Below, piece by piece: positions 6,061-61,400 of a stretch of DNA of 64,000 bases. The DNA is from Pseudobacteriovorax antillogorgiicola. Lineage in GTDB: Bacteria > Bdellovibrionota_B > Oligoflexia > Oligoflexales > RGVZ01. Every line of letters starts with the position of its first letter. Position 1 is the first letter of the stretch. The DNA lies in contig CAMBEK010000001.1 of assembly GCA_945865565.1 (NCBI GenBank), positions 1-64,000 on the forward strand, given 5' to 3'. The translations under genes and the position numbers were made by a program. The notes below the pieces were generated by a model. It worked only from the letters and a program-made list of their open reading frames with translations, searched no databases and was not told the origin of the DNA.

Positions 6061-6210
6061 CAATCTGAGGCCGCAGGCCGAAGAATCCTTTCCCCGACCC
6101 GTCATTCTGAGGCCGCAGGCCGAAGAATCCTGTCTTACGGTTTAAGAAAGGATCCTTCCCCTTCGCTACGCTCAGGGTCAGGATGACGAGGTGAGGCTCA
6201 GGATGCCGAC
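6061..6210. repeat. Dispersed hairpin repeat cluster (about 3-4 units)
   Basis: Two units carry the core CTGAGGCCGCAGGCCGAAG (near 6064-6086 and 6107-6129), which folds as GA-GGCC-GCA-GGCC-GA. An inverted unit of the GGATCCTTCGCT...CTCAGGATGAC type follows at about 6150-6186, with a fragment ending near 6206. The same elements occur at 18.6, 19.2 and 61.1 kb and inside mutM. Confidence 0.85.
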
Positions 6211-6239
6211 AAATATGCTCAGGACGGCGACAGTTCGCT

Positions 6240-6923
6240 TTACTGCTGAATGGTGTCTTCAGAGATATACGGCGTCAGAGCTTCGCCGCGTGCAAAGGTG
6301 GCTGGATCGACTTTGTAGCAACGCTGGGCAAACTTGCGGGTGGTGTTGGCACCGGCCAATTTGAAGTCGTCTTGATGGTCGCACTGGATCAGTTGAAGGG
6401 TCCCGCCAGAACCAGACGCTGTTTCCGAAGGGGTTGCATCTTTGTAGATCATCCGCATCAGGTCGCCCTGGAGTTTGATCGCAAAGCTCATGCCGCGTCC
6501 GGTTGGGTCTTTGCCTTCCATCCCGGCATAGCTGACGTAACGGGCAAAGCCGACGACGTCACCCGTAGAGGTCAACTCTTGGGCCTCAAACCGAACCACC
6601 ATGGCCCGGTCGCGACGGCGAACGGTTTTGTCACCAGCACTAGACGTAAAAGTATCCGTTTGCGCAATGTTCACCACGGCGTCAAATGCCAGGCCTTTGC
6701 CGGATTTCGACAGGTTGGCAAAGGTCCACCGGCGGGCCACTTCCGAAAGATGCTCTTCACCTGATGCATCGCGGCTCGAGCTGGCACTTTGTGTGACAAA
6801 GGTCCGGTCAATCAGGTTGTTTTGAAGTGCCTCGGCGACGCCGTCACGGTTGGCGGCACGGCCGGTGGCTGCAAAGACGCCGACAGACAAGGATACTGAC
6901 AACAATTTCAGTGATTTATGCAT
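6240..6923 (-). CDS. Secreted protein of unknown function
   Basis: 227 residues with a signal peptide (MHKSLKLLSVSLSVGVFA, cleavage near ATGRA). The mature part is soluble-looking, with a probable disulfide pair in the C-terminal third (IQCDHQDDF and RCYKVDP). I do not recognise a family. A good ribosome site (GAGGGGG) precedes the ATG. The gene ends 30 bases from the repeat cluster and is preceded by an AT-rich stretch that probably holds its promoter. Confidence 0.6.
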   Translation of the reverse strand: MHKSLKLLSVSLSVGVFAATGRAANRDGVAEALQNNLIDRTFVTQSASSSRDASGEEHLSEVARRWTFANLSKSGKGLAFDAVVNIAQTDTFTSSAGDKTVRRRDRAMVVRFEAQELTSTGDVVGFARYVSYAGMEGKDPTGRGMSFAIKLQGDLMRMIYKDATPSETASGSGGTLQLIQCDHQDDFKLAGANTTRKFAQRCYKVDPATFARGEALTPYISEDTIQQ

Positions 6924-7042
6924 AAATGCCCCCTCAAACGATAAAAAGACGGGGAATCTAATAACATAATTAAAATAATAATAAAGCGACTAAAAATAAC
7001 TATGCTTTTTTATCACTTCTCTGCTCCGTGTGTGCATCGTGT

Positions 7043-7060
7043 CACTTTCCGCGGAAAGTG
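7043..7060. repeat. 18-bp perfect palindrome with ACTTTCCGCGGAAAGT core
   Basis: CACTTTCCGCGGAAAGTG is a perfect palindrome in gene-free DNA just upstream of the higBA remnant. The same 16-bp core occurs once more, at 61218-61235, inside another repeat-rich intergenic region. It could be an operator or the footprint of an accessory element. Confidence 0.6.
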
Positions 7061-7147
7061 CGCTGTTACTGGAGGGTTCAGATGTCACTTCTACGGACTA
7101 GCTGCATCGGTTAGCCATCACATGACGGCGGGCGAGTATCCGGCGTT

Positions 7148-7179
7148 ATACCTCGCGTAGGTATACCTAATTTAGGTAT
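7148..7179. promoter_or_regulatory. Two overlapping operator-like inverted repeats
   Basis: ATACCT-N5-AGGTAT occurs twice at a 15-base period (7148-7164 and 7163-7179), sharing two bases. Paired operators of this kind are typical upstream of type II toxin-antitoxin operons, where the HigA/Xre antitoxin binds. They sit directly upstream of the higB remnant. Confidence 0.6.
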
Positions 7180-7180
7180 T

Positions 7181-7411
7181 ACGAGAAAGCTAGGGTGGCG
7201 ATCCGTCGCTAATATCGCTGCGCGAAAGCTCGACTACCTGGATTACGCCGTCGTCCTGTCAGATCTTGCGGCGCCTCCTGGTAACCGCCTTGAAGCCCTG
7301 TTGGGCAGACTTGAGGGCTTTCACAGCATCAGGATAAATCGCCAGTGGCGACTGGTCTTCTGCTGGACAGAAGATGGCCCTGACCAGGTGAGTCTCGTCG
7401 ACTATCACCCA
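7181..7411 (+). pseudogene. HigB-type toxin remnant (N-terminus lost)
   Basis: The + strand frame starting ITRKLGWRSVANIAARKL and containing PPGNRLEALLGRLEGFHSIR, QWRLVFCW and VSLVDYH matches the RelE/HigB plasmid-maintenance killer family from its second helix to the final VDYH strand. No start codon or the usual first 20 or so residues can be found; the operators run straight into the middle of helix 1. The frame then collides with the antitoxin remnant in another frame, without an intergenic region. This is judged a deletion-damaged gene. Confidence 0.75.
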
Positions 7412-7415
7412 GAAG

Positions 7416-7622
7416 AGGCTAGCCGATCATCTGGGAATCGACATAAAGACCGTCAACCGCATCATTAACGGGCGATCTCCGGTTACGCCAGAGCTGGCGA
7501 TCATGTTGGGGTTTACCTTCGGCACCACACCCCTTGTGTGGATCAACGCCCAACTCGCCGTCGACCTGTATGACGCAGAAAAGAACCTGAAACACCGACC
7601 GGGACGAATGCAGGCGGGTTGA
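7416..7622 (+). pseudogene. HigA-type antitoxin remnant (N-terminus lost)
   Basis: The frame RLADHLGIDIKTVNRIINGR, then VTPELAIMLGFTFGTTPLVW and NAQLAVDLYDAEK, to a TGA at 7620-7622, matches the helix-turn-helix and C-terminal helices of HigA (Xre family, VapI-like). The N-terminal portion that normally precedes RLAxHLGI is missing and the sequence abuts higB in a different frame. A deletion therefore removed the higB stop, the junction and the start of higA. Confidence 0.75.
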
Positions 7623-7666
7623 CTCCGGCATCGCAGGGCACGGATGTGTTGCAGGCCTGAATTCGA

Positions 7667-8821
7667 TCATCTCGAAAAAATTTCCTTAATTCCATCCTGC
7701 CAAAAAAGACACTTGATGGGTCCCCTCATGGTTGCGTGGGGATCGCGTGAAAGAAGGATAGGGCATACATTCGGGTCCTTCGAAAAAGCAAGTAGCGTCC
7801 GGCAGTCCTCTTGACTTATTTGTCCGCTGGATTTGATCTCAAGATAAACTCTGCTCATGCCTGGTCGATCAATGATCAAGTCAATTTCCGCATCGTCTTT
7901 CGTTCGCAAAAAGCTGAATGAAAAATCTCGAGCGTGGTAGGCATTCAATCGAATGATCTCGCAAATTATGAAATGCTCGAACGAGTCACCATACGCGAAG
8001 GTTTGCGGTAAAAGATGGACGGTCAGTGTGTGTTCTAGCGCCCGCTTGACGCCCAAATCGAAGAAATAAAACTTCGGCTTCTGTGCTTGTCGTTTACGAA
8101 TGGACTCATGAAACGCATCTAAACGAAAACCCAGTAGAGTGTCCTCCAGAATATCAAAATATGAAATGATGGTGGTCGTATCGACGCCGACGTCACGCGC
8201 AATTTTTGCGTAGTTTAAAATCTTGCCATTCATTTGAGCTGCAATGGGAAGAAATTTGCGGAATGGTTCTATTTTGCGCACCCATTGTTCCGCCTGGATC
8301 TCCGTCGTCACATAATTCAATCCATAGGACCGCAGGTACGCAGCTCGCGCGTCGTCAGTCGTAAGGCTAAAAAGTTTAGGCAGACTTCCCCACTGCAAAA
8401 CATCCTGAAGTGAAAAATCTTCTCCAAGCTCAATGTGAGTCAATGGAAAGGCGTAATTGGTAAATGCGCGACCAGCGAGCAGGTTCACACCCTTTTGCTT
8501 GAGTCGTCGGGCGCTAGATCCCGTCAACGCGAACTTTAGTTTTTTTGTTTCAATTAGATGATGAACCAAATTCAAAAGCTTGGGGACTTTTTGGATTTCA
8601 TCCACGACCACCCAGCTACCCGGCGCGGCGCCTGAAACTCGTGCGGAGAATTCCTCGGGTTTGCGTACAAAAAGGTCCTCCTCCACCGGATCGAGAAGGT
8701 TGACCCAGATCACGGGCAGGTCCTTAAAAAACTCCGTCAAAAACGTTGTTTTGCCCGTGCCACGCGCGCCAAATAGGAAAAAACTATCCGATATTATTGG
8801 ATTTATGAGTCTTTTGACCAT
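7667..8821 (-). CDS. AAA_14/DUF4143 family ATPase (second copy, divergent)
   Basis: 384 residues with Walker A GARGTGKTT (about 18-26), Walker B VVVDEIQKVP, a sensor-like LTGSSARRLKQKGVNLLAGR, and a C-terminal nuclease-like core (DDAEIDLIIDRPG, YLEIKSSGQ). It belongs to the same architecture as the protein at 4862-6058 but to a different branch. Its promoter (TTGACC-N17-TACAAT) again leaves almost no leader. With the higBA debris and the first ATPase it forms an accessory island. Physiological role unknown. Confidence 0.85.
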   Translation of the reverse strand: MVKRLINPIISDSFFLFGARGTGKTTFLTEFFKDLPVIWVNLLDPVEEDLFVRKPEEFSARVSGAAPGSWVVVDEIQKVPKLLNLVHHLIETKKLKFALTGSSARRLKQKGVNLLAGRAFTNYAFPLTHIELGEDFSLQDVLQWGSLPKLFSLTTDDARAAYLRSYGLNYVTTEIQAEQWVRKIEPFRKFLPIAAQMNGKILNYAKIARDVGVDTTTIISYFDILEDTLLGFRLDAFHESIRKRQAQKPKFYFFDLGVKRALEHTLTVHLLPQTFAYGDSFEHFIICEIIRLNAYHARDFSFSFLRTKDDAEIDLIIDRPGMSRVYLEIKSSGQISQEDCRTLLAFSKDPNVCPILLSRDPHATMRGPIKCLFWQDGIKEIFSR

Positions 8822-8829
8822 ATCCTATA

Positions 8830-8858
8830 ATTGTACGCCATTTATTGGGTATGGTCAA
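8830..8858 (-). promoter_or_regulatory. Sigma-70 promoter, near-leaderless
   Basis: On the reverse strand TTGACC (8853-8858) and TACAAT (8830-8835) are spaced by 17 bases. The ATG at 8821 begins 9 bases after the -10, which predicts a leader of about 0-3 bases. This repeats the arrangement seen before the first DUF4143 ATPase. Confidence 0.6.
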
Positions 8859-8880
8859 GATCAGCAAATCCGCGACGAGG

Positions 8881-9768
8881 TCAATCGACGTGTCCAGTCT
8901 GGGCATCCGACTGCGCGGACTTCAACATGTCGACTGTGATTTTAATTCCTTCCAGATCACCACCTGGACCACTGGCCCGATTGCGCGATTCAAGGATTTC
9001 AGCCAATTCAACGGTTCGCTTGACCAGAAGGTCACGGCGGGCCCGCAGTTCTCCGTTGGTGATGCGTCCCATCGATGCGGCCTCAATCAAGTAATCATCC
9101 ATGGTTTTGAAGTTATAGAGGGCAGACTCCGAGCTAAACGCCGGCATTTCATCCGCGTTGTGGATCACCTGGCCACGGACGTTTTCGCTGTCAATTGGAC
9201 CTTGGTCCGGATTGGAGGCACGCGACAGAACAAAACGATCGACGGATTCAGCGACTTTCTGGTTCAGCGCCGCGGCCGGGGCTTCGACAAACTTCTTGGC
9301 CTTCATAGTGGAAAGCCAATCTCTCAAGCTCATTGCGCCGCCCGTGGACCCTGGAGCAAGTGCTGGATCTAGAACCATCTCATGGCCGTTGACCACGATA
9401 ACGGGCGCCACATGATAGACCCACGCCGCAGGATCCAGCAACGGTGCGTCGACTTTCCAATCTTGACTGGCCTCGTCATAGGTCGTGCGAATGAATACGA
9501 CCCGTGACGGAATATTGGCCGCAAAAAGCTCCATCTGCATGTAGGTGGCACGGGCGTAACAACCGTCGGCCGAGTATTCGTACGGCAGATACGCCTTGGT
9601 TCCCTCGACAATCCGGTAGGCTTCGGCGGCTTCTGTAGACCGGACGAGAGCGTCTTGCAGACTGCCGCGACTACGGGACTTGCATCCACCGACACCCAAG
9701 ATCAGGCCGAACACGAAAAGTAAAACTAGCAACTGCCCGCGATTTAAATAACTTGGATCCCTATTCAT
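8881..9768 (-). CDS. Predicted lipoprotein with protein-glutaminase-like domain
   Basis: 295 residues. The N-terminus carries a hydrophobic signal ending LILGVGGC, a lipobox with Cys29. The region 60-140 resembles bacterial protein-glutaminase (protein deamidase, papain-like fold): SADGCYARATYM (Cys70), AAWVYHVAPVIVVNG (His119) and MVLDPALA (Asp134), in the order of the Cys-His-Asp triad of that family. Such enzymes convert glutamine side chains of proteins to glutamate. The C-terminal half is helical and not recognised. The ATG overlaps the stop of the upstream sigma-54 regulator by one base (TAATG), implying translational coupling. Assignment rests on motif memory; activity is unproven. Confidence 0.65.
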   Translation of the reverse strand: MNRDPSYLNRGQLLVLLFVFGLILGVGGCKSRSRGSLQDALVRSTEAAEAYRIVEGTKAYLPYEYSADGCYARATYMQMELFAANIPSRVVFIRTTYDEASQDWKVDAPLLDPAAWVYHVAPVIVVNGHEMVLDPALAPGSTGGAMSLRDWLSTMKAKKFVEAPAAALNQKVAESVDRFVLSRASNPDQGPIDSENVRGQVIHNADEMPAFSSESALYNFKTMDDYLIEAASMGRITNGELRARRDLLVKRTVELAEILESRNRASGPGGDLEGIKITVDMLKSAQSDAQTGHVD

Positions 9769-11378
9769 TACGCAACTCCGGTACGCTCACCACGTTTTTC
9801 AAGGCCGTATTTCTCGACTTTCATGATCAGGCCCGCCCGGCTGATGCCAAGTTCTTTAGCCAACTTGGACTTGTTCCAGCGCGTGCGCTCCAGACCTTGG
9901 CGGATCATTTCACGCTCAAGATCTTCCAGGGCTTCCTTTAGTTTTCCGTCGAGTCGGTATTGGGTGTTTGGAGATTTCGCGACGGCATCCTTGATGCGCG
10001 GGCTGAGAAAATCATTGCTGACCTCCTTGTCTTCGCCAGCCAAAACACAGAGGCGTTCAATCTCATTTTCGAGTTCGCGGACGTTGCCCGGCCACTCGTG
10101 ATTGAGCAGATCTTCCATGCAGTGGCTCGACAGGCTCTTCACAGGCTTGTTGGTCTGTTTGGCATAACTTCCAAGGAAGTGTTCTACCAAAAGTGGAATG
10201 TCCTCCCTGCGATCACGAAGGGGCGGCACAGTCACGTTGATGACATTCAGCCGGTAAAACAAATCTTCGCGGAAGGTGCCCTGCTTGACCATGGCTCCCA
10301 GATCGCGATTTGTTGCGGCAAGGATTCGTGCGTTGGAAGAACGCATCTCGTTGCTACCAACCGGAGTGAACGTGCCTTCTTGAAGAACACGCAGCATCTT
10401 CACCTGCATTGCCATCGACGTCTCGCCAATCTCGTCAAGAAATAGAGTCCCACCGTCAGCCTCTTCAAAAAGGCCCTTCTTGTCCCGGATGGCGCCGGTG
10501 AACGAACCCTTCACGTGGCCAAAAAGTTCTGACTCGAGAAGATTTTCGTTGAAGGCACCACAGTTCACGAGCAAAAACTTTTTGCCCTTGCGCTGGGAAT
10601 TGTAATGCAGGGCCTTGGCAATCAGTTCTTTACCGGTCCCGTTTTCACCCTGCACGAGAACCGTCGCTTCGGATGGCGCCACGCGCTCGAGCATGCGGTA
10701 GAGCGACTGCATGGCGCCAGACTTACCAATCATCGAGTCAAAGCCGTAGCGAGTTCCGAGTTCCTTGCGGAGGTCGGCCACCTTCTTTTGCGAATCTGCG
10801 ACGTTCTTGTTTGCCAATGCCATTTCATCGACGACAAGTTCGATTAGTTCCGTCAGGTAGGCCACCTCTTTCGAGGTCAAAACGGGCAGCTTGTCCACTT
10901 CGGCTTGAAGTTCTCTGGCACGACTAGGAAAAGTGCGTTCCAAATAGGATTTGATTAGAACTCGCTGCTCGGCAGCCGTTTCCTCGACCAAGAATCCATC
11001 GCCGAAGACGCAGCCGAGGTACTGGTTGTTGACGCGGATTGGCACCGAGATGGCGGAGAATCCGGCGTGGCATTTAAACAAACGTGAATCCTTGCTGTTC
11101 GTTGCGTCGACCGTGGTTTTACGCGCGGTACCCAAGCAACTCTGGAAACCTTTTTGGTCCCCCGTCACAGCCTTGCAAACAGAATTCAAGGGATTGAAAA
11201 AACGACCTTCCGGCACGCCGCGAAGAAAGCCCTTCGTATCGGTAAAGTTCAACTGGATATTCCACCAGCGACCCACCAAGTCACGCAGGCTGCGAATCAC
11301 ATGCAGCTTGTCAAACTCATCCCACTTGACGGCTTCTGAACCTGATGACGAACTTGGTAATGAACCCGATGATGACAT
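9768..11378 (-). CDS. Sigma-54-dependent activator with PocR sensory domain
   Basis: Transcriptional activator with three parts. The N-terminal PocR-type ligand-sensing domain (about 25-160) has Cys-rich spots at [24 protein letters not shown] and LGCVFGDGF. The AAA+ sigma-54 interaction domain has Walker A GENGTGKE, then [17 protein letters not shown], and the Arg-finger region [11 protein letters not shown] Fis-type helix-turn-helix lies at the C-terminus ([15 protein letters not shown]). The sigma-54 loop reads GSFTGA instead of the usual GAFTGA. The frame is open to 11405, but the ATG at 11378 starts the Ser-rich leader. It is followed by, and coupled to, the protein-glutaminase-like lipoprotein gene, a likely target or partner. 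Confidence 0.88.
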
Positions 11379-11404
11379 TGCGTGACCCTCGTCGTGATGT
11401 GGCA

Positions 11405-11416
11405 CGTCAATTGACG
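11405..11416. promoter_or_regulatory. 12-bp palindrome upstream of the sigma-54 regulator
   Basis: CGTCAATTGACG lies 27 bases upstream of the preferred start of the PocR regulator. It could be an autoregulatory operator. The support is only its position and symmetry. Confidence 0.25.
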
Positions 11417-11544
11417 CTCACTCAGGTCATCGGCAGAAATGTAGATAATTTTAACAGGATAAAAAATACAATAAATACAGTGACTTGGGATTTGGCCTGC
11501 AACCACACCCGTCAAAGTGTCGCTTTTGCAGGCGTTCTACATGT

Positions 11545-12222
11545 CTACATTATGTCGTTCACTTTGACACCAGAGGGTAGGGCAAAGGACAGCGGAGTGA
11601 GTCCGCGACGGTCTGGATTCGAGAAATCCACCGACAAACTTGCCTTGTTGCGCAGGGTAAAATGAACGCGCGAAACAAAACCAGCGTCCTCGTCGACCGT
11701 GAGTTCTAGATTGTCGATCTCATCGTTGTCCGTATTTGCTGGTTTGAACTGCAGGTGAACAAACTTTCCGTCGCGTTTTCCTGAGACCAACTGATAAGTT
11801 TTGAAAATCGAACCCACATTAAGAACAAAATCGACCACTCTTTTTACTTCCTTCGCCTGCTGCCCTTTTGCACTGTAACGGGCAGCGACGTTATCTCTTG
11901 GCAAAAATTTGATCAGGTCTTTCCCATTAAAAATGGTTTCTTCATTGATCGGTTCACCAAGAACCCAACGAAAACGATCCGGCTTTTGAAAGAGGGCGTA
12001 GCCCTTGACCACAACCGGGCGATTTGGGCGTGATGGACTTGTTTTCTTTTGCACCATGTCAACACGAAGGCATTCGCTGGCCTGAAGTTTTTTCTGGATT
12101 CCTTCAAGGTCACCCTTGGTGAGATCCGCAAAAGCCTGGCCGGATACCAGCAAAAGGAAGATGGCAAATTGACGCCGTGTTAGGCGGAATATTTGTAAAA
12201 CGAACTGGATTTGGCTTTTCAT
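11545..12222 (-). CDS. lolA: LolA-like outer-membrane lipoprotein carrier protein
   Basis: Periplasmic chaperone that shuttles lipoproteins from LolCDE to the outer membrane. A signal peptide ends near GQAFA. The mature protein has the LolA-type half-barrel pattern: ASECLRVDMVQKK, GYALFQKPDRFRWVL, NEETIFNGKDLIKFLP, and a late strand with DNLELTVDEDAGFVSRVHF. Sequence similarity to enterobacterial LolA is limited, as usual outside gammaproteobacteria. Its ATG overlaps the pncC stop (ATGA). The many predicted lipoproteins in the window fit the need for this carrier. Confidence 0.8.
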   Translation of the reverse strand: MKSQIQFVLQIFRLTRRQFAIFLLLVSGQAFADLTKGDLEGIQKKLQASECLRVDMVQKKTSPSRPNRPVVVKGYALFQKPDRFRWVLGEPINEETIFNGKDLIKFLPRDNVAARYSAKGQQAKEVKRVVDFVLNVGSIFKTYQLVSGKRDGKFVHLQFKPANTDNDEIDNLELTVDEDAGFVSRVHFTLRNKASLSVDFSNPDRRGLTPLSFALPSGVKVNDIM

Positions 12223-12746
12223 CCGATTTTCTCCATCAGAAAGCGAATTGTATGCATGGCGGCATCTTCCCGGATCGCCGTCCGGTCGCCCGTCAACTTC
12301 AACAGCCTGGCTTCAACCCCGGTTGGACCAGCGACCGCACACCAAACGGTACCAACTGGTTTGTCCACGGTTCCGCCGTCTGGACCCGCGACACCTGAAA
12401 CTCCGACCGACCAGGTTGTCTTAAAACGCTCACGGGCACTGCTTGCCATGGCCTTGACGACCGTCTCCGAGACCGCACCGTGCCTGACAATCACACTTGG
12501 ATCGATCCCCAAAATGGCTGTCTTGGCTTCGTTGGCATAGGCGCAAACTCCACCAAGGAAAAAACGGGAACTTCCGGCTGGCATCGTGAGCCAAGTCGAA
12601 ATCAGCCCGCCCGTGCAACTTTCAGCCGTTGCTATGGTTCCTCCGGATGCCCCGAGCCTGTGGTACAAGTCAGAAATCACGACCAATATTTGTTCCGGAG
12701 AGATGCGGGGTCCGGTATCGTGTAAGTTCTTAGATATCGTATCCAT
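12219..12746 (-). CDS. pncC: Nicotinamide-nucleotide amidohydrolase (CinA C-terminal family)
   Basis: Pyridine-nucleotide salvage enzyme that deamidates NMN to nicotinate mononucleotide. Family signatures: TIATAESCTGGLIS, a GSSRFFLGGVCAYANEAK loop, GVSGVAGPDGG and KPVGTVWCAV. It is a stand-alone CinA-C domain without the N-terminal MoaB-like domain. The frame extends upstream to a GTG at 12785; the ATG at 12746 is preferred because it leaves room for a divergent promoter before fadD. Coupled to lolA downstream. Confidence 0.88.
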   Translation of the reverse strand: MDTISKNLHDTGPRISPEQILVVISDLYHRLGASGGTIATAESCTGGLISTWLTMPAGSSRFFLGGVCAYANEAKTAILGIDPSVIVRHGAVSETVVKAMASSARERFKTTWSVGVSGVAGPDGGTVDKPVGTVWCAVAGPTGVEARLLKLTGDRTAIREDAAMHTIRFLMEKIG

Positions 12747-12798
12747 GTAACAAGCGTTTCCAAGTGAGCTGGGATCTCGACTCACGCAGGAGGTTGAA

Positions 12799-18613: not shown

Positions 18614-18838
18614 CCCGTCATCCTGAGCCGCACCCCGTCATCCTGAGCGAAGCGAAGGATCCTTTCCTAAACCCGTCATCCTGAGCGAAGCGAAGGATCC
18701 TTTCTTACGCGTGGAAGAAAAGATTCTTCGGCCCAAGGCCTCAGAATGACGTGGGCTGCGGCTCAGAATGACGTGGGCTGCGGCTCAGAATGACGTGAGC
18801 TGCGGTTTCGGAATGACGAGAGCTCTGGCTTCGGAACA
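18614..18838. repeat. Dispersed hairpin repeat cluster (left of the GIY-YIG gene)
   Basis: Forward units of the type CATCCTGAGCGAAGCGAAGG (near 18632 and 18676) are followed by inverted units (GATTCTTCGGCCCAAGGCCT near 18722 and several shortened CTCAGAATGACGTG repeats to 18836). The hairpin cores read ATCCT-GA-GC-GAA-GC-GA-AGGAT and, inverted, ATTCT-GA-GGCC-TTG-GGCC-GA-AGAAT. Confidence 0.85.
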
Positions 18839-18845
18839 AATTGGA

Positions 18846-19145
18846 CTAGACATTGTCCATGCAAGTATCCGCAAGATCGTGCCATCGCGGATTCATCTCG
18901 AAAATCATCGCGATTTTCTTTGAACGCGTTTTTCCCTTAATGCTCTTTTCCAGGGCGATTGCATCGTGCATCGAGTCAAGAAACTCAAAATACACAAGCT
19001 TTTTCGTGTGGTATTTGGAACTAAACGCTTCAGTGCCACCTGTCTTGTGCTGCGCAACTCGCAGTTCAATATTGGATGTTACCCCGGTGTACAGAACCGT
19101 ATGTCCAGCGTTCGTCATGATGTAAACGTATCCACCCTTTTTCAT
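18846..19145 (-). CDS. GIY-YIG nuclease family protein
   Basis: 99 residues. The family signature is GYVYIM followed by VLYTGVTSNIELRVAQHK, with the catalytic Arg, a central KLVYFEF strand, a conserved Glu in ALEKSIKG and a conserved C-terminal helix. This is the small UPF0213/YhbQ-like form, usually a complete one-domain protein. It is boxed in by dispersed repeat clusters on both sides (18614-18838 and 19222-19437), which raises the possibility that nuclease and repeats travel together. Function in the cell unknown. Confidence 0.88.
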   Translation of the reverse strand: MKKGGYVYIMTNAGHTVLYTGVTSNIELRVAQHKTGGTEAFSSKYHTKKLVYFEFLDSMHDAIALEKSIKGKTRSKKIAMIFEMNPRWHDLADTCMDNV

Positions 19146-19221: not shown

Positions 19222-19437
19222 GACAGGATTCTTCGGCTACGCCTCAGAATGACACGTAAGAGACAGGATTCTTCGGCTACGCATCAGAATGACGGGTTAA
19301 GAAAGGATCCTTCGCTAACGCTCAGGATGACGCGCGGAGGCTCAGGATGACGCGCGGAGGCTCAGGATGACGCGGAGGCTTAGGGCGAATGGGCCTGAGC
19401 GAAGCGAAGAACCCTTCGCTCCGCCCAGGATACCCGA
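19222..19437. repeat. Dispersed hairpin repeat cluster (right of the GIY-YIG gene)
   Basis: Inverted units with GATTCTTCGGCTACGCCTCA (two copies about 41 bases apart) are followed by GGATCCTTCGCTAACGCTCA. After these come three shortened CTCAGGATGACGCGGAGG repeats and a partial unit running to the flagellin stop. The cores fold as ATTCT-GA-GGC-GTA-GCC-GA-AGAAT and ATCCT-GA-GC-GTTA-GC-GA-AGGAT. Confidence 0.85.
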
Positions 19438-29987: not shown

Positions 29988-30098
29988 CTCTCTCCTTCTC
30001 CCTCTCCCTCATCATATCAATTCCGTCATCCTGTGCCGCATCTCGCGATCCTGAGCTGCAGTCGATGCCAGGCGCACTCTAGTAGAGCAGTTCTAAAC

Positions 30099-53133: not shown

Positions 53134-53211
53134 ATCAGTGATGTTAAGAGCTTGCAATTTTAACCGGGACTCGGCAGGCTACCCTTAGCGATTAATCGAA
53201 GGAGACCTCGC

Positions 53212-53706: not shown

Positions 53707-53752
53707 TTTGATGGCATAAACAAGGCTCTGGACAAGAGTTTGATGCATTAGA

Positions 53753-53778
53753 CCCGGGGGCGAAAGCCTCCGGGTTTT
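53753..53778 (+). terminator. Rho-independent terminator of pal
   Basis: CCCGGGGGC-GAAA-GCCTCCGGG followed by TTTT forms a stem of about nine pairs with a GAAA tetraloop, 47 bases past the pal stop. Confidence 0.88.
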
Positions 53779-53870
53779 ATGTTTTAAGGAATTGAAAAAA
53801 CACGGTCAACCAGATAACTTCACCATTCCGAGAAACGCATCCAGCCCGAGGGCTGTTGGAGGATATCGTT

Positions 53871-55439
53871 GTGGATTCTGTTGTTATTGCTGCCATTGTC
53901 GTGGCCGGTCTGGCCATTGGCGTACTGATCTTTGGAGTTTTCTTCCACCGCCGTCAACTAGCCCTGGCCTTTGAAAATGCCCAGGCCGACTCAAAACGAA
54001 TTCTAGAAGAAGCCCGCCGTGAAGCCGACCACCTGATCAAGTCCGCCGTTCGTGAAACCAAAGAAGAAAGCCGGCGCAATCGCCAAACTTTTGAAGACGA
54101 AGCGCGCCAACGCAAAGCCGAAGTTCAAAAGCTGGAGCAAAAGCTCAAGCAACGAGAAGAGTCCCTTGACGGGAAAATCACGACCGTTGAGCGACGCGAA
54201 CAAGAATTGATCACCCAAGAGACCAAGTCCCTGGCCGAAGAACAACGTTTCCAGCGACTCAATTCTGAATACGAAAAATCAATCGAGCGGACCTCAAAAC
54301 TGCTCGAACAAATTGCCAACATGTCGCCCGAAGACGCCAAACGCGAACTCATGCGCAACATGGAAGCCGAAGCGCGCAGGGAAGCCCAAGAAGTAATCCG
54401 GCGCATCGAAGAGGAAACAAAAGCCGAAGCCGAAAACCGTGCCCGCTCGGCTTTGAGCCTTGCCGTTCAAAGAATCTCCGGCGAATTCGTGAGTGACTCC
54501 ACCGTCTCTGTGGTTGCACTGCCTTCGGAAGATACCAAAGGTCGCATCATCGGTCGTGAAGGCCGCAACATCCGCGCCCTGGAGCAAGCAACTGGAGTCG
54601 ACCTGATCATCGACGACACCCCTGAGGCCGTCATCATTTCGTGCTTCAATCCACTGCGCCGTGAAATTGCCAAGGTCACTCTGGAACGCCTTATTGGTGA
54701 CGGTCGTATCCACCCGGCGCGCATTGAAGAAACCGCCAAGCGCGTCGAAGCCGAATTTGATCAGATCCTGCAAGAAACCGGAGACCAGGCTTGTTTCGAA
54801 ACTGGACTCACCGATCTGCACCCAGAGCTCGTCAAGTTGCTTGGCAAATTGAAGTACCGGACGAGCGGGCAGAAAAGCGTTTTGGCTCACGCTGTGGAAA
54901 CCGCCCACCTTTGCGGAATGCTCGCAAGCGAAATGGGGCTCAACGTGAAAAAGGCCAAACGCGCTGGTTTGTTGCATGACATTGGCAAGGCCGTTGGTCA
55001 GGAGGTTGAGGGACACCACTCGCAAATTGGTGCCGACTACTGCGCCCGCTACAACGAACCATCTGACATTGTGGATGCAATCCGCGCACATCACGCCGAG
55101 GACTTGACCCTTTCATCTCCTCTCGCCGTGATCCTGCACACAGCCAACATCCTGTCGGGAACAAGGACCGGAGCCCGCAAGGAACAACTTGAATCTTACG
55201 TAAAACGTCTTGAAGACATGGAAAATGTTGTGCGCGGAATGCGCGGTGTCGATGAAACTTATGTCATCCAGGCAGGGCGCGAGATCAGAGTCATCGTCAA
55301 CCCGACAACCCTTGGTGACCAGGAGGCCATTGATCTTTCAAATGAAATCGCTTCCCGCTTGCGCCAAGAAATCAACTTCCCTGGTCAGGTAAAAATCACC
55401 GTACTTCGGGAAAGCAAAGGCGTGGACTTCGCCAAGTGA
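53871..55439 (+). CDS. rny: Ribonuclease Y
   Basis: Membrane-anchored endoribonuclease that starts mRNA decay. N-terminal helix (VVIAAIVVAGLAIGVLIFGV), a long coiled coil (about 30-200) rich in Glu/Arg/Lys, a KH domain (SEDTKGRIIGREGRNIRALE), and an HD domain with HAVETAHLCGML and LLHDIGKAVGQEVEGHHSQI. Start at GTG 53871 because GGAGG lies 8 bases upstream; a TTG at 53856 is in frame. 522 residues, full length. It shares one base with the ymdB-like start (TGATG), a common pairing. Confidence 0.96.
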   Translation: MDSVVIAAIVVAGLAIGVLIFGVFFHRRQLALAFENAQADSKRILEEARREADHLIKSAVRETKEESRRNRQTFEDEARQRKAEVQKLEQKLKQREESLDGKITTVERREQELITQETKSLAEEQRFQRLNSEYEKSIERTSKLLEQIANMSPEDAKRELMRNMEAEARREAQEVIRRIEEETKAEAENRARSALSLAVQRISGEFVSDSTVSVVALPSEDTKGRIIGREGRNIRALEQATGVDLIIDDTPEAVIISCFNPLRREIAKVTLERLIGDGRIHPARIEETAKRVEAEFDQILQETGDQACFETGLTDLHPELVKLLGKLKYRTSGQKSVLAHAVETAHLCGMLASEMGLNVKKAKRAGLLHDIGKAVGQEVEGHHSQIGADYCARYNEPSDIVDAIRAHHAEDLTLSSPLAVILHTANILSGTRTGARKEQLESYVKRLEDMENVVRGMRGVDETYVIQAGREIRVIVNPTTLGDQEAIDLSNEIASRLRQEINFPGQVKITVLRESKGVDFAK

Positions 55440-56266
55440 TGCGTATCCTTGCCATCGGTGACATCATGGGTAAGGCTGGCCGCCAGGCTCTAGCCCACTT
55501 TCTTCCGTCGCTGCGCCTGGAATTCAATCCGGATGTTGTCCTCGTCAACGGGGAAAATGCCGCCGGCGGATTTGGACTCACAGAAAAAATCTACGAACAA
55601 TTGACCTCTCAGCTCGGTGTCGATTGCGTCACGATGGGCAATCACTGGCACGATAAGCGCGAATTCGTCCGGTTTGCGGAGCAATGCGAACGGATCGTCC
55701 TTCCTGCCAACATGATGAACGTGAACAATCCCGCAAAAGGGGTCCGGGTTCTTCGCTCCAAGAGCGGAAAAAATTTCGCCGTCATGAATGTGATTGGTAA
55801 GACCTTCATGCATGCCGACAATCTTTCGCCATTTGTGCACCTAGAGCGAATGATGGACCTGATTCCGCAAGCCGTTAAAGTCCGGATCCTGGACATCCAC
55901 GCCGAAGCGACCAGCGAAAAGCAGGGCGTTGCGCAACATCTGGCGGGCAGGGTTTCTCTTGTCTACGGAACACACTCCCACGTTCCAACCGCCGATGAAC
56001 GCATTCTCGCTGGCAAAACAGGTTTCATAACGGATGTCGGCATGACTGGCCCGTATGACTCGGTGATCGGAATCCGCAAGGAAGCCGCGATAAAAAGACT
56101 CATGACTGGCGAGAAGAAAAATTTTCAACCCGCCAATCGCGACCGCTGGTTGTGTGCCGTGATGGCAGACATCGATGAAGATTCTGGGAGCTGCATAAAA
56201 ATCCAGCGCCTGAGGCTTGAAGTTCCAGACCGTCCGGACGATGGACCGGAAGAAAAGGATGATTAA
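55439..56266 (+). CDS. ymdB: YmdB-family metallophosphoesterase
   Basis: Calcineurin-like phosphoesterase with 2',3'-cyclic-nucleotide phosphodiesterase activity in characterised relatives. ILAIGDIMGKAGRQAL gives the first metal motif, NGENAAGGFGLTEK and TMGNHWHDKREF follow, and THSHVPTADERIL is the last. The C-terminal tail is acidic. It directly follows rny and overlaps it by one base. The symbol is used in the Bacillus sense, unrelated to E. coli YmdB. Confidence 0.9.
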   Translation: MRILAIGDIMGKAGRQALAHFLPSLRLEFNPDVVLVNGENAAGGFGLTEKIYEQLTSQLGVDCVTMGNHWHDKREFVRFAEQCERIVLPANMMNVNNPAKGVRVLRSKSGKNFAVMNVIGKTFMHADNLSPFVHLERMMDLIPQAVKVRILDIHAEATSEKQGVAQHLAGRVSLVYGTHSHVPTADERILAGKTGFITDVGMTGPYDSVIGIRKEAAIKRLMTGEKKNFQPANRDRWLCAVMADIDEDSGSCIKIQRLRLEVPDRPDDGPEEKDD

Positions 56267-56268
56267 AA

Positions 56269-57927
56269 ATGGCTGATACCAAAAAACGCATCGCATTTGC
56301 GATGGCACTTTCTCTCTCAACAGTAATTGCTGCCGGCAAGGCTCAGGCTTTTTTTCTTGATGGCAATGGCCACTACGCCTTGCGTGGCGCGACGGAAAAA
56401 AATCCTGGCTTTGCGACAGACCGCGGAACCTATCAAGCAATCGAGCAAAGCTTTCGCCTAGAGGCCGAAGCCCGCATGAACGACCGCTCTAGCTTTTTCA
56501 CCGAAATGCGCCTCACCGATGATCCGCGCTCTTCATTTCTAGGGGACACGGCAAGGCCACATGATTGCCCAACGCGTCGCGTTCCTGTTGGCGATGGGAC
56601 CTACACCACCTCCGACGACTGCACCGGTCGTCATCAAGATTCAGGTCACCCCGGATATCAGTCCTACACTCCGGTCATAACTCGCGCTTACGCACGGCAA
56701 GCCTTTGACTTTTGCCTTGTCGAAGCCGGACGGCGCCCACGCGACTGGGGCCTTGGCGTGATGATGGACGGTGGTTCAAATCCATTTGATGTGGACTGGA
56801 GCACATACGACGGGATTGACTGTCACGTGAACATCCAGAAATCTCAGAGCATTGGCTTTAAGCTTGGCTATGACAAGATCGCCGAGACCGGTACTTGGAT
56901 CGACAATCCATACGACCGGACCCTCGCCGATACGTCGAGCGAGGCAGAGTTCAATAGCCGCAGTACGACCTTTGGAGCCACAAATCCATCTGACGACCTG
57001 GATCAGTTTTTCTTTACGATTGAATTCGACGATCGCAAGGCCAATGCAGGATCATCCTTCACCAAACAAATTGGAATCTACTTCGCCAATTTGATTGGAA
57101 AGGATTCTAAAACCGACCTCAAACTGGTCGATATTTACACGGGCCTGTTTCTGTCAAATTTCACCCTAAAAAATGAACTCCTCTTCCGCCTCGGGAAATC
57201 TGCTGACCCCAACTGGATCGGCCTTGGCGGAGCCCGCTTTGACAATGGCGACATCGCAACCAACGATTTGCAGTCTGTTGGCTTTGCCGGAGCGCTTGAG
57301 TGGACCTTGGCGCGTGATGGCAGCGCCATTGGCCCGATGGATTACCGTCAAGGGAATGCCTCGCGTCAGGTGGTCTTCATGGACTACGCCTATGCACCGG
57401 GCGACGAAAATGGCTACTACCGCGACGATGCCAATTATTCTGACGCAACCCTCAACACCATTGGTGAATCCCAGCGCACCTCGAAAACGAGCACCATGGG
57501 TTTTCACCGGAACTACCGACCGGCTCTGATCATGTTCAACGGGAAATCAGGGACAGAAGGCACTGGCCTTTCGGGCGTCTACGATCCGCAGCGGGTCATG
57601 AACGCTACGTTGTTTGGTTTTGGCTACCGTTTGGACAGCCTGGAGTACGGCCTTTTTGAGGCAAAAGTCCTGACCGCCCACATGAATGCGTCCATGCCTG
57701 AACCAGTTCACACCTACTATGCATCAGCAGAAGGCAACAAGCCGGTCGGTTACCATGGCAGCAACCTTGGCATTGAACTGGATGTCAAATACGGGGCGAC
57801 CCCATCTCGTGAATTCGAATATGGAATTGAGGCAGGTTATGCCCGGGGCGGAGATGCCCTGAAGGTGTCAGATAGTGCCCCGGCGACCTCGGTACTGGTA
57901 CAATCTTACGCAGCGTTCAAATTCTGA
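56269..57927 (+). CDS. Predicted outer-membrane beta-barrel protein, unknown
   Basis: 552 residues with a signal peptide ending AGKAQA. The mature protein opens GNGHYALRGATEKNPGF and continues with repeated amphipathic strands (SFRLEAEARMNDRSSFFTEM, LKNELLFRLG, LGIELDVKYGATP). It ends in Phe (VQSYAAFKF), as expected of a BAM substrate. Cys pairs (DCPTRR, DDCTGR) may form loops. The overall pattern recalls large porin-like or alginate-export-like barrels, but I cannot name a family. It directly follows the ymdB-like gene. Confidence 0.7.
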   Translation: MADTKKRIAFAMALSLSTVIAAGKAQAFFLDGNGHYALRGATEKNPGFATDRGTYQAIEQSFRLEAEARMNDRSSFFTEMRLTDDPRSSFLGDTARPHDCPTRRVPVGDGTYTTSDDCTGRHQDSGHPGYQSYTPVITRAYARQAFDFCLVEAGRRPRDWGLGVMMDGGSNPFDVDWSTYDGIDCHVNIQKSQSIGFKLGYDKIAETGTWIDNPYDRTLADTSSEAEFNSRSTTFGATNPSDDLDQFFFTIEFDDRKANAGSSFTKQIGIYFANLIGKDSKTDLKLVDIYTGLFLSNFTLKNELLFRLGKSADPNWIGLGGARFDNGDIATNDLQSVGFAGALEWTLARDGSAIGPMDYRQGNASRQVVFMDYAYAPGDENGYYRDDANYSDATLNTIGESQRTSKTSTMGFHRNYRPALIMFNGKSGTEGTGLSGVYDPQRVMNATLFGFGYRLDSLEYGLFEAKVLTAHMNASMPEPVHTYYASAEGNKPVGYHGSNLGIELDVKYGATPSREFEYGIEAGYARGGDALKVSDSAPATSVLVQSYAAFKF

Positions 57928-57975
57928 ATCTGACGTAAGGGGGCTCCTGCCAACGGAGGCTCCGGGAAGGAATCC

Positions 57976-59358
57976 ATGCTGGAACGGCTGTCCATCGATC
58001 CCGCCGCCTGGGCCCGCACAGAAATGGTCCAAACCAGCGAACTTTTAATGGCTGTCGCGGGGGCCCTCAGCACAACAGGGCTCGTCGCAAGCAGGCACAT
58101 CGACTCCCTGCGAAGCGATCTGGCTGCGATGCAAGCAGGCTATTCAGCCTCGCCGCAGCAAGATCCTCCACTCCTTTCATTGTCTCGATCCGGTTGCGAA
58201 TTCCTGACGCTGCTCGAATCAAGGTACGGGTCCAACCGATTGGTCCTCAATCTCTTCCGCCACGGCATCAAAATCTGGTCACGGGAAACCTGTTTGACCT
58301 TGAATCGTTGGGGACAAACCATCCTCAAAAATTATGAACTGGTCCTGAACCGAAGCATAATCATTTACGATAACAACCAAGAGCCTGGTGATGAACGTCT
58401 TTTCTCCAGTTTGATGTTGGACATGGCTGCAAGGATCGACACCTGTGCAGATGCGATTGAATCTCTTTCTGCGCGATTGGACGCCTGGCACGGCAACCCG
58501 CTTCCAAACAGCCCGGAAGATGACAGCGCCGAACAAGTTGTCGCTGAACGAACTGGCATGCGAGGCATTGTCCAAGACACGGCGCCCGGACATGACGAAG
58601 AGTATTTCATTCGTCGCGTGGCCCTGGAACTGGCAACCCTAGCTCAATTCACCAGTCATTTTACGGGCCAGATCACCGCGAATTTAGACCTCCCCACCAA
58701 CGTCCTACTTGAAATGCGAAGTAAATGGCTGCAGACCGAGGCCACTAGATTAGCCAGCTTCACTTGGCCCCATTCCCCTGGAATTGTCGCCATGGAAATC
58801 GCGCGCAATCATGTGATGATGGTTCTATCGAGCATGACGGGGGCCCTTCTCGACATTGAGAATGAAAGCACCCGCCTGCTGCCTGGTCGACTCGGTTCGG
58901 AAATTGATTCACTTCAGCGTCAAAGGGTTGAGTCGCTGAGAGGAAACCTGATCGCCGATGCGATGCTTGCCGGACTCTCTGCAAAGGATGCTGAGAATTC
59001 CGTCATCAGCCTGATAACCTTTACAGAGAAACACGCACTTTCGGCCCGCGAGGTCATCACGAGTGAGCTCAACAAGATCCACCCTTCATTAATGCCCAGG
59101 ACCTTGGACCGTTTTCAAAAATTGACGGCACCGGATCCGCTGTCCCAGAATAAATCTGCGGAGAAATCCAGGGGGGCCTCCAAGGCGATGCACCTTCTAG
59201 GAAGATTCACCGAACGCTCACAACGTCTGCCCTTGATGGCGCTCATGATTGCTGCCCTCTTTGTCGGCGCCATGACTGGCGGATGTGGTTTGAAAACGGC
59301 CCCAAAAAGCGATGTCGATGATCTCCGACCAGAGATCCCATTCAGGAACAAACCATGA
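57976..59358 (+). CDS. 460-residue protein ending in an LptM-like lipoprotein segment
   Basis: The first about 400 residues are soluble and helical. They bear only a faint, unverified likeness to the fumarase/argininosuccinate-lyase fold in their C-terminal helices (LIADAMLAGLSAKDAENSVI). From about 405 the sequence reads like a complete small lipoprotein: MHLLGRFTERSQRLPLMALM, a hydrophobic stretch, then lipobox MTGGC-GLKTAPKSD and a Pro-rich end. LptM/YifL-type lipoproteins (GCGLKGP form) often lie just before DAP or lysine genes, as here before dapA. An in-frame ATG at 59188 with a G-rich tract upstream could start the lipoprotein separately. The end overlaps dapA by four bases. Confidence 0.55.
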   Translation: MLERLSIDPAAWARTEMVQTSELLMAVAGALSTTGLVASRHIDSLRSDLAAMQAGYSASPQQDPPLLSLSRSGCEFLTLLESRYGSNRLVLNLFRHGIKIWSRETCLTLNRWGQTILKNYELVLNRSIIIYDNNQEPGDERLFSSLMLDMAARIDTCADAIESLSARLDAWHGNPLPNSPEDDSAEQVVAERTGMRGIVQDTAPGHDEEYFIRRVALELATLAQFTSHFTGQITANLDLPTNVLLEMRSKWLQTEATRLASFTWPHSPGIVAMEIARNHVMMVLSSMTGALLDIENESTRLLPGRLGSEIDSLQRQRVESLRGNLIADAMLAGLSAKDAENSVISLITFTEKHALSAREVITSELNKIHPSLMPRTLDRFQKLTAPDPLSQNKSAEKSRGASKAMHLLGRFTERSQRLPLMALMIAALFVGAMTGGCGLKTAPKSDVDDLRPEIPFRNKP

Positions 59359-60284
59359 CCAAAACAATGTCCGCGCCAAACGAAAAAAAATCCCCTCATG
59401 CTTTCAGAGGTGTCTGGACGGCCATCGTCACTCCATTCAAGGAAGACCATTCCCTTGACTGGGCTGCCTGGGAAAGTTTGCTACACCTGCAGGCGGAAGG
59501 CGGCGTATCTGGCGTTGTTGTGTCGGGAACGACGGGCGAAAGTCCGACGCTGACCGTCCAGGAAAAAATTTCACTGGTGCGCAAAGCCCGCGCTGTTCTT
59601 CCGAGTTCAATCCGCCTGATGGCGGGTAGCGGTGGCAACAACACGGATCAAAGCGTGGAGCTGTCGCGCCTTTGCGTGGACGCAGGCGCAGATTCACTTC
59701 TAGTTGTAACGCCCCCTTACAACAAACCTTCACCTGCCGGCCTGAAGCTGCACTACACCACCATCACCGAAAGTGTTTCGGTACCGGTGTGCCTTTACCA
59801 CGTGCCAGGCCGGACGGGGCAAATGCTTAGCCCAGAAGTTCTTGCTGACCTTTGCCGGATCAAAGGCGTTGCCTGCGTCAAGGAAGCCACTGGCGACATG
59901 GGTTTTTTGTCTCGAGCAATCAATCAAACCAGATCTGCTGGTACGGCATTTCTTTCGGGAGACGACATCACGTTTCTTCCAAGCCTTGCCTTGGGCGCAA
60001 CGGGCGTCATCAGCGTCCTGTCAAACGTTCTTCCCGGCGAAATGGTCCGGATGTTCAACGCGTGGGAGTCCAATGATCTGGTCGGGGCGCTGCGGCTGCA
60101 CAACATCATGCAGCCTTTGATGGACGTGATGTTTTGTGAATCCAATCCTGGTCCGGTCAAGGAAGCCCTTGCGCAGACTGGCATTATTTCACGAAGCCTG
60201 CGCGCGCCGATGGCGCCTGTGACCGCGCCTAGCGCGTCGTTGATTCAATCTTGCCTTGCCACGACGAGGTCGGCATTAAAATGA
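59355..60284 (+). CDS. dapA: 4-hydroxy-tetrahydrodipicolinate synthase
   Basis: First enzyme of the DAP branch, condensing pyruvate with aspartate semialdehyde. GVWTAIVTPFKEDHSLDW, VVSGTTGESPTLT, TPPYNKPSPAGLKLHY, Tyr in VCLYHVPGRTGQM and the Schiff-base Lys in VACVKEATGDMG are present. 309 residues, normal. ATG overlaps the upstream stop (ATGA) and its own stop overlaps dapB. Supplies meso-DAP for peptidoglycan, consistent with Mpl and LdcA in the same region. Confidence 0.95.
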   Translation: MTKTMSAPNEKKSPHAFRGVWTAIVTPFKEDHSLDWAAWESLLHLQAEGGVSGVVVSGTTGESPTLTVQEKISLVRKARAVLPSSIRLMAGSGGNNTDQSVELSRLCVDAGADSLLVVTPPYNKPSPAGLKLHYTTITESVSVPVCLYHVPGRTGQMLSPEVLADLCRIKGVACVKEATGDMGFLSRAINQTRSAGTAFLSGDDITFLPSLALGATGVISVLSNVLPGEMVRMFNAWESNDLVGALRLHNIMQPLMDVMFCESNPGPVKEALAQTGIISRSLRAPMAPVTAPSASLIQSCLATTRSALK

Positions 60285-61090
60285 AGGCGGGAAATCAAAA
60301 AACCACGCGGGTATGGCTGCATGGAGCCTCTGGCCGGATGGGACTTGAAATTCAGTCCGCTCTTGAAGGTCGCCGCGACTCCGTCATTCTCATGGGCGGT
60401 TCCGGCCGTAAGTTCATCGGAGACAGCCTCCTCACCGGCAGACCTGTTAGTCCAGAAAAACTGGCCCACGCAATTTCCCACGGTGTCGACGTCGTGATTG
60501 ATTTCTCCATTGCCGAGGGCAATGAGTTGCTGCTTCAAGCCATCAAGGCCATCCCACCTGAAAAACGCCCTCAGGTTTTGATTGGCACGACTGGCTTAAG
60601 TGAAAAGATCCGTAAGGAATGGACAAAGATTGCAGCGAAAATGCCCAGAGGCTGCGTTTTTATCGCGCCAAACACGAGCCGTGGCGTTCTTGCAACGATT
60701 GAAGGCGCACTTCGTGTTCAGGAAATGCTGAAGGATTCACGCTGCGACGTCGCCATCATCGAAACCCACCACCGACTGAAAAAAGATGCGCCGAGTGGCA
60801 CAGCGAAAATGTTCTCTGATCGCCTTTCAGAAAATCAGGGGCCGTCCGATCCGACTTTAACGATCGCTTCGGTAAGGGGTGGTGGCGTATTTGGCGAACA
60901 TGAAATTCGTTTCATGGGCGTTCATGACGAAATCATCATCACCCATCGGGCCTATTCGCGTAGCCTTTTCGCAGAGGGTGCCCTTGACCTTGCGATCTGG
61001 CAGCATAAATGCGGCTCGAAATTTAAATCTAAACTAATTTCTTTGGCTGATTTTGCGGGCGCATCACGCGCCAGCCGGTCAGAGAAATAG
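60281..61090 (+). CDS. dapB: 4-hydroxy-tetrahydrodipicolinate reductase
   Basis: Second DAP enzyme, NAD(P)H-dependent. VWLHGASGRMGLEIQSAL is the nucleotide-binding start, VIDFSIAEGNELLL and IGTTGLSEK follow, and ETHHRLKKDAPSGTA is the family signature. The ATG at 60281 overlaps the dapA stop and replaces a non-conserved upstream extension. 269 residues, normal. A repeat cluster starts within a few bases of its stop. Confidence 0.95.
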   Translation: MKAGNQKTTRVWLHGASGRMGLEIQSALEGRRDSVILMGGSGRKFIGDSLLTGRPVSPEKLAHAISHGVDVVIDFSIAEGNELLLQAIKAIPPEKRPQVLIGTTGLSEKIRKEWTKIAAKMPRGCVFIAPNTSRGVLATIEGALRVQEMLKDSRCDVAIIETHHRLKKDAPSGTAKMFSDRLSENQGPSDPTLTIASVRGGGVFGEHEIRFMGVHDEIIITHRAYSRSLFAEGALDLAIWQHKCGSKFKSKLISLADFAGASRASRSEK

Positions 61091-61094
61091 CCAC

Positions 61095-61400
61095 GCCGTC
61101 ATCCTGAGACGCTCCGTAATTCTGAGACGCTCCGTCATCCTGAGCGTTAGCGAAGGATCCTTTCTTCTCCGCTACGGAACAGGATTTTTCGGTTTCGTCT
61201 CAGTAGGACTGATTCTCGACTTTCCGCGGAAAGTCCCATTGTCTGGCGTCGTCAATCTTAAGAAAATCGTTTTTAAAAAAATTTTAAGAAAGGATCCTTC
61301 GCACTAAGCTCAGGATGACGGGTTAAGAAAGGATCCTTCGCTAACGCTCAGGATGACGGAGTGAGGGTCAGGATTACGGAATAAGGCTCAGGATGACGGA
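61095..61400. repeat. Dispersed hairpin repeat cluster between dapB and the 757-residue gene
   Basis: Partial units (GTCATCCTGAGACGCTCCGT and variants), a full unit with CATCCTGAGCGTTAGCGAAGG (about 61136-61165) and, inverted, GGATCCTTCGCACTAAGCTC and GGATCCTTCGCTAACGCTCA at about 61290-61355, then short CTCAGGATGACGG remnants. The palindrome at 61218-61235 lies in the middle. The region holds no gene and lies at the convergent 3' ends of two transcripts. Confidence 0.85.
61218..61235. repeat. 18-bp perfect palindrome, second copy of the ACTTTCCGCGGAAAGT core
   Basis: GACTTTCCGCGGAAAGTC shares a 16-bp core with the palindrome at 7043-7060. Both lie in gene-free, repeat-associated DNA. Confidence 0.6.

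Follow-up and report, generated by a model that had tools for sequence, protein, structure and literature searches.

A hairpin repeat family around a small GIY-YIG gene

The window analysed here, positions 1-64,000 of Pseudobacteriovorax antillogorgiicola contig CAMBEK010000001.1 (GCA_945865565.1), carries a family of short hairpin repeats with a GA/GA internal loop and, inside the repeat cluster at 18.6-19.4 kb, a gene for a 99-amino-acid GIY-YIG protein whose homologs are accompanied by such repeats in many phyla. Repeat copies lie at 1.56, 6.1, 18.6-18.75, 19.2-19.3 and 61.1-61.36 kb, in both orientations and mostly clustered (Table 1). An earlier note on this DNA had named these sites, and copies with the anatomy it described were found at all of them. 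The 1.56-kb copy falls outside the 6,061-61,400 interval under which the family had been reported and sits inside mutM, and the copy near 6061 is decayed. Neither the GIY-YIG gene nor the tandem 5'-half copies that are also present in the clusters had been listed.

A full copy consists of a CGTC tag, an outer stem (arm 1, 5 bp), the GA/GA step, an inner stem (arm 2, 2-4 bp) and an apical loop, and in window copies the stem opens with complementary AT..AT. Arm 2 takes the reported GGC/GCC, GGCC/GGCC and GC/GC states, plus GCC/GGC and a nested form with two GA/GA steps four pairs apart (ATCCT-GA-CCCT-GA-GC-GTA-GC-GA-AGGG-GA-AGGAT, e.g. 6151-6185). Two steps are also common in ATTGC-type families, as GA-G-GA ... 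GA-C-GAA with one pair between them. The shared flanks were recovered as the CGTC tag and, in most copies, the 3' flank (T)CCTTTCTT(A); after the arm comes a C, then most often CTTTCTT, and a pyrimidine-rich TCCTTTCTT tail lies 3' of the repeat. Isolated half copies (GTCATCCTGTGCCGC, GATCCTGAGCTGCAG) occur at 30020-30070, right downstream of tRNA-Arg, with no full copy nearby. Searching the window with Rfam covariance models at the gathering threshold returned two tRNAs only and no match to the repeats.

The structure model of the 99-amino-acid protein has a GIY-YIG fold (pLDDT 90), and the conserved Tyr, Arg and Glu of the GIY-YIG superfamily are present, with Y8, Y19, R29 and E66 invariant among 46 aligned homologs. 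Fold comparison matched 1ZG2 (Foldseek E 1.8e-4) and Slx1 (E 0.02), and sequence similarity to 1ZG2 was weak (E 0.046).

Table 1. Repeat copies and the embedded gene in the 64-kb window
Feature	Position	Strand	Profile match
Full copy, ATTCT/AGAAT, GGC/GCC; in frame inside mutM (1019-1888, minus)	1555..1582	+	
Decayed full copy, CAATCTGA..GAAGAATC	6058..6087	+	
Full copy, ATTCT/AGAAT, GGCC/GGCC	6100..6129	+	
Nested copy, two GA/GA steps (ATCCT-GA-CCCT-GA-GC..)	6151..6188	-	
5'-half copies, upstream (own strand) of nested copy	6196..6229	-	
5'-half copy upstream of full copies	18616..18635	+	
Full copy, ATCCT/AGGAT, GC/GC, GAA loop	18636..18661	+	
Full copy, ATCCT/AGGAT, GC/GC, GAA loop	18674..18699	+	
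Full copy, ATTCT/AGAAT, GGCC/GGCC	18722..18751	-	
5'-half copies repeated in tandem, unit about 22 bp; upstream (own strand)	18752..18818	-	
GIY-YIG protein, 99 aa, single domain; putative single-strand nuclease cognate to the repeats, which lie on both sides	18846..19145	-	PF01541 E 5.2e-15
Full copy, ATTCT/AGAAT, GGC/GCC	19227..19254	-	
Full copy, single inner-stem mismatch (CATTCTGATGCGTAGCCGAAGAATC)	19267..19294	-	
Full copy, ATCCT/AGGAT, GC/GC, GTTA loop	19306..19332	-	
Two 5'-half copies, 20 bp each	19333..19372	-	
Two 5'-half copies, 18 bp each	61097..61132	+	
Full copy, ATCCT/AGGAT, GC/GC, GTTA loop	61133..61159	+	
Full copy, ATCCT/AGGAT, inner GC, loop TTAGT	61293..61320	-	
Full copy, ATCCT/AGGAT, GC/GC, GTTA loop	61332..61358	-	
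Two 5'-half copies, 20 bp each	61359..61398	-	

Gene and repeats occur together across phyla

Homologs of the protein were gathered by protein similarity alone, giving 80 genes; the subset for which both a hairpin label and a phylum name were available comes from 16 phyla. Repeats of the form GTC-AT-hairpin-AT-C were found within 700 bp of 70/80 homologs and on both sides of 58, mostly inverted around the gene. Repeat density was 22 per 10 kb near the gene compared with 1.3 per 10 kb beyond 1.5 kb, and 11.6% of random windows of the same contigs had such repeats. When other GIY-YIG genes (UPF0213-like, UvrC and others) were examined in the same way, 1/15 had such repeats beside it.

Copy number followed the presence of the gene. 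Among four genomes of the same genus, the two that have the gene contain 169 and 190 copies, and the two that lack it contain 8 and 4. At least 10 copies occur in 6/58 genomes of the phylum, of which five carry the gene, versus 8 of the 52 others (Fisher p = 0.0015, uncorrected for kinship). The nifS-flagellin locus was examined for an intact site without the gene cassette and did not provide one: G040 and G041 have a different gene there, so these genomes document presence and absence and not a precise excision footprint.

Hairpins of other designs were also met beside homologs. Other homologs in the phylum (loci L043, L044, L047) lie next to GTCAT hairpins of another construction (e.g. GTCATCCCGCGGCTTGACCGCGGGATCC, GTCATCCCCAGACCGAAGGTCGTCGGGGATC), some of which form long tandem arrays of half copies. 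Clostridia and Bacteroidota homologs (L119, L123) have GTC-AT hairpins without a GA/GA step, with uninterrupted 8-bp stems at L123 and a GGA/GAT-type junction at L119; the GA internal loop, though common, is thus not universal. The same-genus genome G041 contains several scattered truncated relatives of the GIY-YIG gene (L061, L065, L200), one adjoining an ATCCC/GGGAT hairpin and another a different perfect hairpin, AGTTTCTGGCGC-TTTC-GCGCCAGAAACT; these truncated genes resemble what a related element would leave behind on decaying. The arms GTCATCCCGA..GAGGGATC were considered as a second, switched family in G041, an idea dropped because the genus yielded just one exact copy, in G042.

The folded form is conserved

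The P. antillogorgiicola genome (2.5 Mb in 44 contigs, 90% complete) contains 169 copies of CATYCTGA-N(4-30)-GAAGRAT, 93 forward and 76 reverse, and the reversed-pattern control gave 0. A pattern that did not demand GA (GTCATYCT-NN ... NN-AGRATC), run over 373 kb of this genome, recovered 92 copies, and 92/92 had GA on both sides, which bears out the invariance that the earlier note had read from a handful of sites. With the three variable letters of arm 1 left free, we found CCT/AGG 82 times, TCT/AGA 31 times and five others, and 113/118 were complementary. In this genome the paired change in arm 1 amounts to one T-A to C-G difference between two common states. Within the genome, this is close to descent from two or three founder sequences, the outcome the note had named as fatal to selection on the fold, so the case for selection must come from other genomes.

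Our arm survey covered 80 loci (70 of the 80 fetched and 10 of 17 from the phylum) and 246 distinct copies. GTCAT was the search anchor in the cross-locus surveys, so that the AT start is part of the anchor and only the first tag base is independent in the tag counts (TGTC 124/246, CGTC 103/246). The copies show 18 kinds of outer arm. In 72 loci from many phyla, found with anchors that did not require pairing, 91/106 arm pairs were fully complementary, compared with a mean of 20.5 and a maximum of 32 when partners were shuffled between loci, and all four Watson-Crick pairs occur at arm position 4. The inner stem gave the same picture in the shortest form with a 2x2 loop, where G-C, A-T and C-G are reached by double substitutions with no one-sided changes; for this test the outer arm was preselected for pairing and the inner stem was not. 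In 246/246 copies the outer arm ends in a pyrimidine ahead of the G-A step, and in 224 the 5' arm continues with GA. A pyrimidine-GA-purine context suits sheared tandem G-A pairs in DNA.

The apical loops are mostly of one kind. Across loci, 95/126 triloops are C-GNA-G, and in the P. antillogorgiicola genome 54 GNA and 28 GNNA/GNAB loops were counted among 89 foldable copies, compared with 5 GNA among 92 shuffled inner sequences. GNA and GNNA loops on G-C pairs form exceptionally stable DNA mini-hairpins, with a melting temperature of about 78 C for GCGAAGC (PMC4686876), and the mini-hairpin loop itself contains a sheared G-A pair (PMC6479982). Because the loops are of this DNA type, we take the selected form to be a single DNA strand, and the RNA reading of the earlier note is not favoured; the absence of G-U intermediates among the counted states and the linked gene for a GIY-YIG-fold protein point the same way. 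Single-sequence folding energies were unimpressive (z -0.7 to -2.0) and are not counted as evidence. Comparison across genomes supports selection for folding around an unchanging G-A mismatch motif, for which the window copies alone were insufficient; physical folding of the repeats in the cell is predicted.

Protein sequence tracks hairpin type

On a tree of 93 proteins, the arm class of the neighbouring hairpins (base 4 purine or pyrimidine) requires 6 changes versus 26 when shuffled. Phylum clusters loosely on the same tree (31 changes versus 46), and several phyla contain both arm classes. The protein column most strongly associated with hairpin type is residue 72, which lies in the loop that joins the helix with the conserved Glu66 to the following helix. 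Proteins with Gly72 are accompanied by a three-nucleotide 3' junction, typically GAA, in 112 copies versus 1 with two nucleotides, and non-Gly72 proteins (mostly Trp or Lys) by a two-nucleotide GA junction in 81 copies versus 4. The length of the 3' junction is a better predictor than arm class by base 4. Independent switches at residue 72 seem to exist, as L066, L134, L139 and L047, which sit in the Gly half of the tree, carry Trp; these switches are few and weakly supported.

Arrangement and local amplification of copies

Neighbouring copies in the P. antillogorgiicola genome form 34 direct, 15 tag-outside and 4 tag-inside pairs, with a usual spacing of 13 nt for direct neighbours and of 24 nt for tag-outside pairs (11/15). 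Tandem 5'-half copies in units of 18-22 bp lie upstream of same-strand full copies in 66 cases and downstream in 1, and 3'-half copies are almost absent from this genome. The polarity is weaker across genomes, where 5' halves are 34 upstream and 4 downstream, and 3' halves 14 downstream and 7 upstream. From this polar growth we suspect a process confined to one strand at the tag side, as a nick there would produce.

Clusters occupy 18 convergent and 10 tandem gene junctions; 0/28 are at divergent ones, compared with 36 divergent among 156 background gaps (p = 0.0017), and convergent sites are enriched (p = 2e-5). Seven clusters fall inside mechanically called open reading frames. One coding copy is the single full in-frame copy in mutM/fpg (PF01149, PF06831): it is also present in G041 and missing from G040, and in the sister genome G042 it is preceded by a 72-bp half-copy expansion of 24 codons, a multiple of three. 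Other copies occur within long open reading frames (L151, L157, L154, L161, L165), including those for a molybdopterin-binding-domain protein and an AIR-synthase-like protein.

A putative nuclease and its proposed recognition sites

We propose as the probable explanation that the repeats are single-stranded DNA hairpins similar to repetitive extragenic palindromes (REPs), and that the product of the gene at 18846-19145, a GIY-YIG nuclease, recognises them as its cognate sites. Whenever a strand becomes single, on the lagging strand, in repair or during DNA uptake, a repeat would fold, with GTC as its tag and ATNNN as the outer stem, followed by the tandem G-A mismatches, the inner stem and a GNA-type loop. 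The nuclease would read the GTC-AT tag and stem together with the GA internal loop and nick the hairpin strand, and nicking could then spread, maintain and rearrange the repeats and carry the nuclease gene along with its flanking inverted copies. Cleavage is predicted from the protein fold and from a group of GIY-YIG nucleases termed Ssn, which reportedly cut single-stranded DNA site-specifically at a dRS3-like (CGTC-type) repeat, NTS, in Neisseria. We infer movement of the repeats because their copy number tracks the gene, the flanking copies are inverted and half-copy amplification is polar.

Several observations weigh against this proposal. One genome, G021, has 59 copies and UvrC as its only GIY-YIG protein, which would imply either loss of the gene or an assembly that does not contain it. 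In the same search, 7 of the 17 homologs from the phylum were flanked by other hairpin designs or by none. The residue-72 correlation reflects mainly one deep split in the tree, with too few independent switches for significance. Cleavage, binding and movement of the repeats by the nuclease are predictions, as is any host benefit, and the gene may exploit the repeats as a parasite instead of mobilising them.

A related alternative is that the gene is a homing-type passenger, with older REPs that spread by other means serving as insertion or cutting sites and for that reason flanking it. GIY-YIG domains are common in homing endonucleases, the gene is located within a repeat cluster, and G021 has many repeats with no detected gene. 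We nevertheless consider this unlikely: copy number collapses in same-genus genomes that lack the gene, the genome gave no match to a REP-associated tyrosine transposase (RAYT), the protein clade follows hairpin class far more closely than phylum, and the gene lies between inverted copies in many phyla. Mobilisation of ordinary REPs by an HUH tyrosine transposase, as in REPIN/RAYT systems, would fit the inverted pairs with their fixed spacing and the REP-like copy number. It was rejected and has next to no standing left, as the tag is CGTC/TGTC and not GTAG, a profile search of the 90% complete genome gave no RAYT (Y1_Tnp, PF01797) match, and Di Nocera et al. (PMC3733652) did not find CGTC repeats on the flanks of any tyrosine transposase gene.

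The remaining two alternatives concern the hairpin itself. As a transcribed element, it could act through tandem G-A pairs in RNA as a terminator, processing site or 3'-end stabiliser, which would suit the convergent and tandem cluster sites, the lack of divergent ones and the pyrimidine-rich tail that follows. Promoter avoidance is expected of any insertion, however, and copies on either strand and within coding sequence (mutM, for example), DNA-type loops, the lack of one-sided G-U states, the linkage to the GIY-YIG gene and the lack of an Rfam match together make an RNA role quite improbable. It is more improbable still that the copies are neutral debris of two founder sequences whose pairing was inherited and not selected. 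That idea draws on the two common arm-1 states of this genome, and it is refuted across phyla by pairing well above any shuffled value, by the 18 arm types with all four pairs at position 4 and by the unvarying pyrimidine before the G-A step, unless locus sampling was deeply biased.

Extending our proposal, we raise tentatively the possibility that selfish DNA hairpins of many phyla are copied by a single-domain GIY-YIG nuclease, with a chemistry that is not HUH, DDE or tyrosine/serine recombinase, which reads the geometry of the tandem G-A loop through residue 72, Gly versus Trp/Lys being matched to a 2x3 or 2x2 loop. If so, a copying GIY-YIG nuclease would be the missing enzyme of CGTC-type REPs. 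The link over many phyla between CGTC-tagged repeats and one small nuclease gene, with a protein sequence that tracks internal-loop geometry, provides a specific enzyme-substrate code that can be tested and turns repeat spread into an experimental question. Screens for structured RNAs should also expect covarying hairpins of this kind, which look RNA-like while their loops point to single-stranded DNA.

Comparison with known systems

In our literature search, GIY-YIG proteins were not linked to repeats of this kind in any paper, and a 2025 paper on REPs (RepRanger) mentions neither GIY-YIG nor RAYT. The remark in the earlier note that its author knew of no described family with these features was too strong. 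CGTC-tagged REPs, which include Neisseria dRS3 and Rickettsia RPE-4/RPE-6, have been described without an associated enzyme or transposase (Di Nocera, De Gregorio, Rocco 2013, PMC3733652). Like them, the repeats described here have an unpaired 5' CGTC/TGTC tag, an AT stem start and a high copy number, are mostly intergenic, avoid divergent promoters, form inverted dimers and include some copies inside repair genes. Unlike them, they have a GA-interrupted stem and an embedded GIY-YIG gene. The four families CGTC-1 to CGTC-4 have an 8-9 bp stem, a 4-5 nt loop and a CCA-like tail, and occur predominantly as head-head dimers, with direct (HT) dimers negligible and groups rare (PMC3733652). Here, by contrast, stems are built as 5 bp + GA/GA + 2-4 bp and close on loops of mostly 3-4 nt (GNA or GNNA), the tail is C and then most often CTTTCTT instead of CCA-like, and direct neighbours (34) outnumber tag-outside pairs (15). 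On tag and AT start, we therefore place the repeats in the CGTC-REP superfamily, and on stem, tail and dimer type outside its four families.

The protein has its fold in common with UPF0213/YhbQ-type GIY-YIG proteins (1ZG2) and Slx1. It differs from the UPF0213/YhbQ type in its weak sequence similarity and in its repeat flanks, which the other GIY-YIG loci tested in these genomes almost always lack. The Ssn system reportedly pairs a small single-domain GIY-YIG protein with a high-copy cognate repeat, the same association as found here, and part of our findings may already be covered by that work of 2025; hairpins with a GA internal loop and a residue-72 rule are not among the features it is said to include. 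Membership of the protein in Ssn is a lead suggested by this likeness. REPIN/RAYT pairs (REPtrons) similarly combine a population of short hairpins with a gene flanked by inverted copies, using an HUH tyrosine transposase and a GTAG tag in place of GIY-YIG and CGTC. By analogy, the system described here may work like a REPIN/RAYT pair in which a GIY-YIG nuclease has replaced the HUH transposase.

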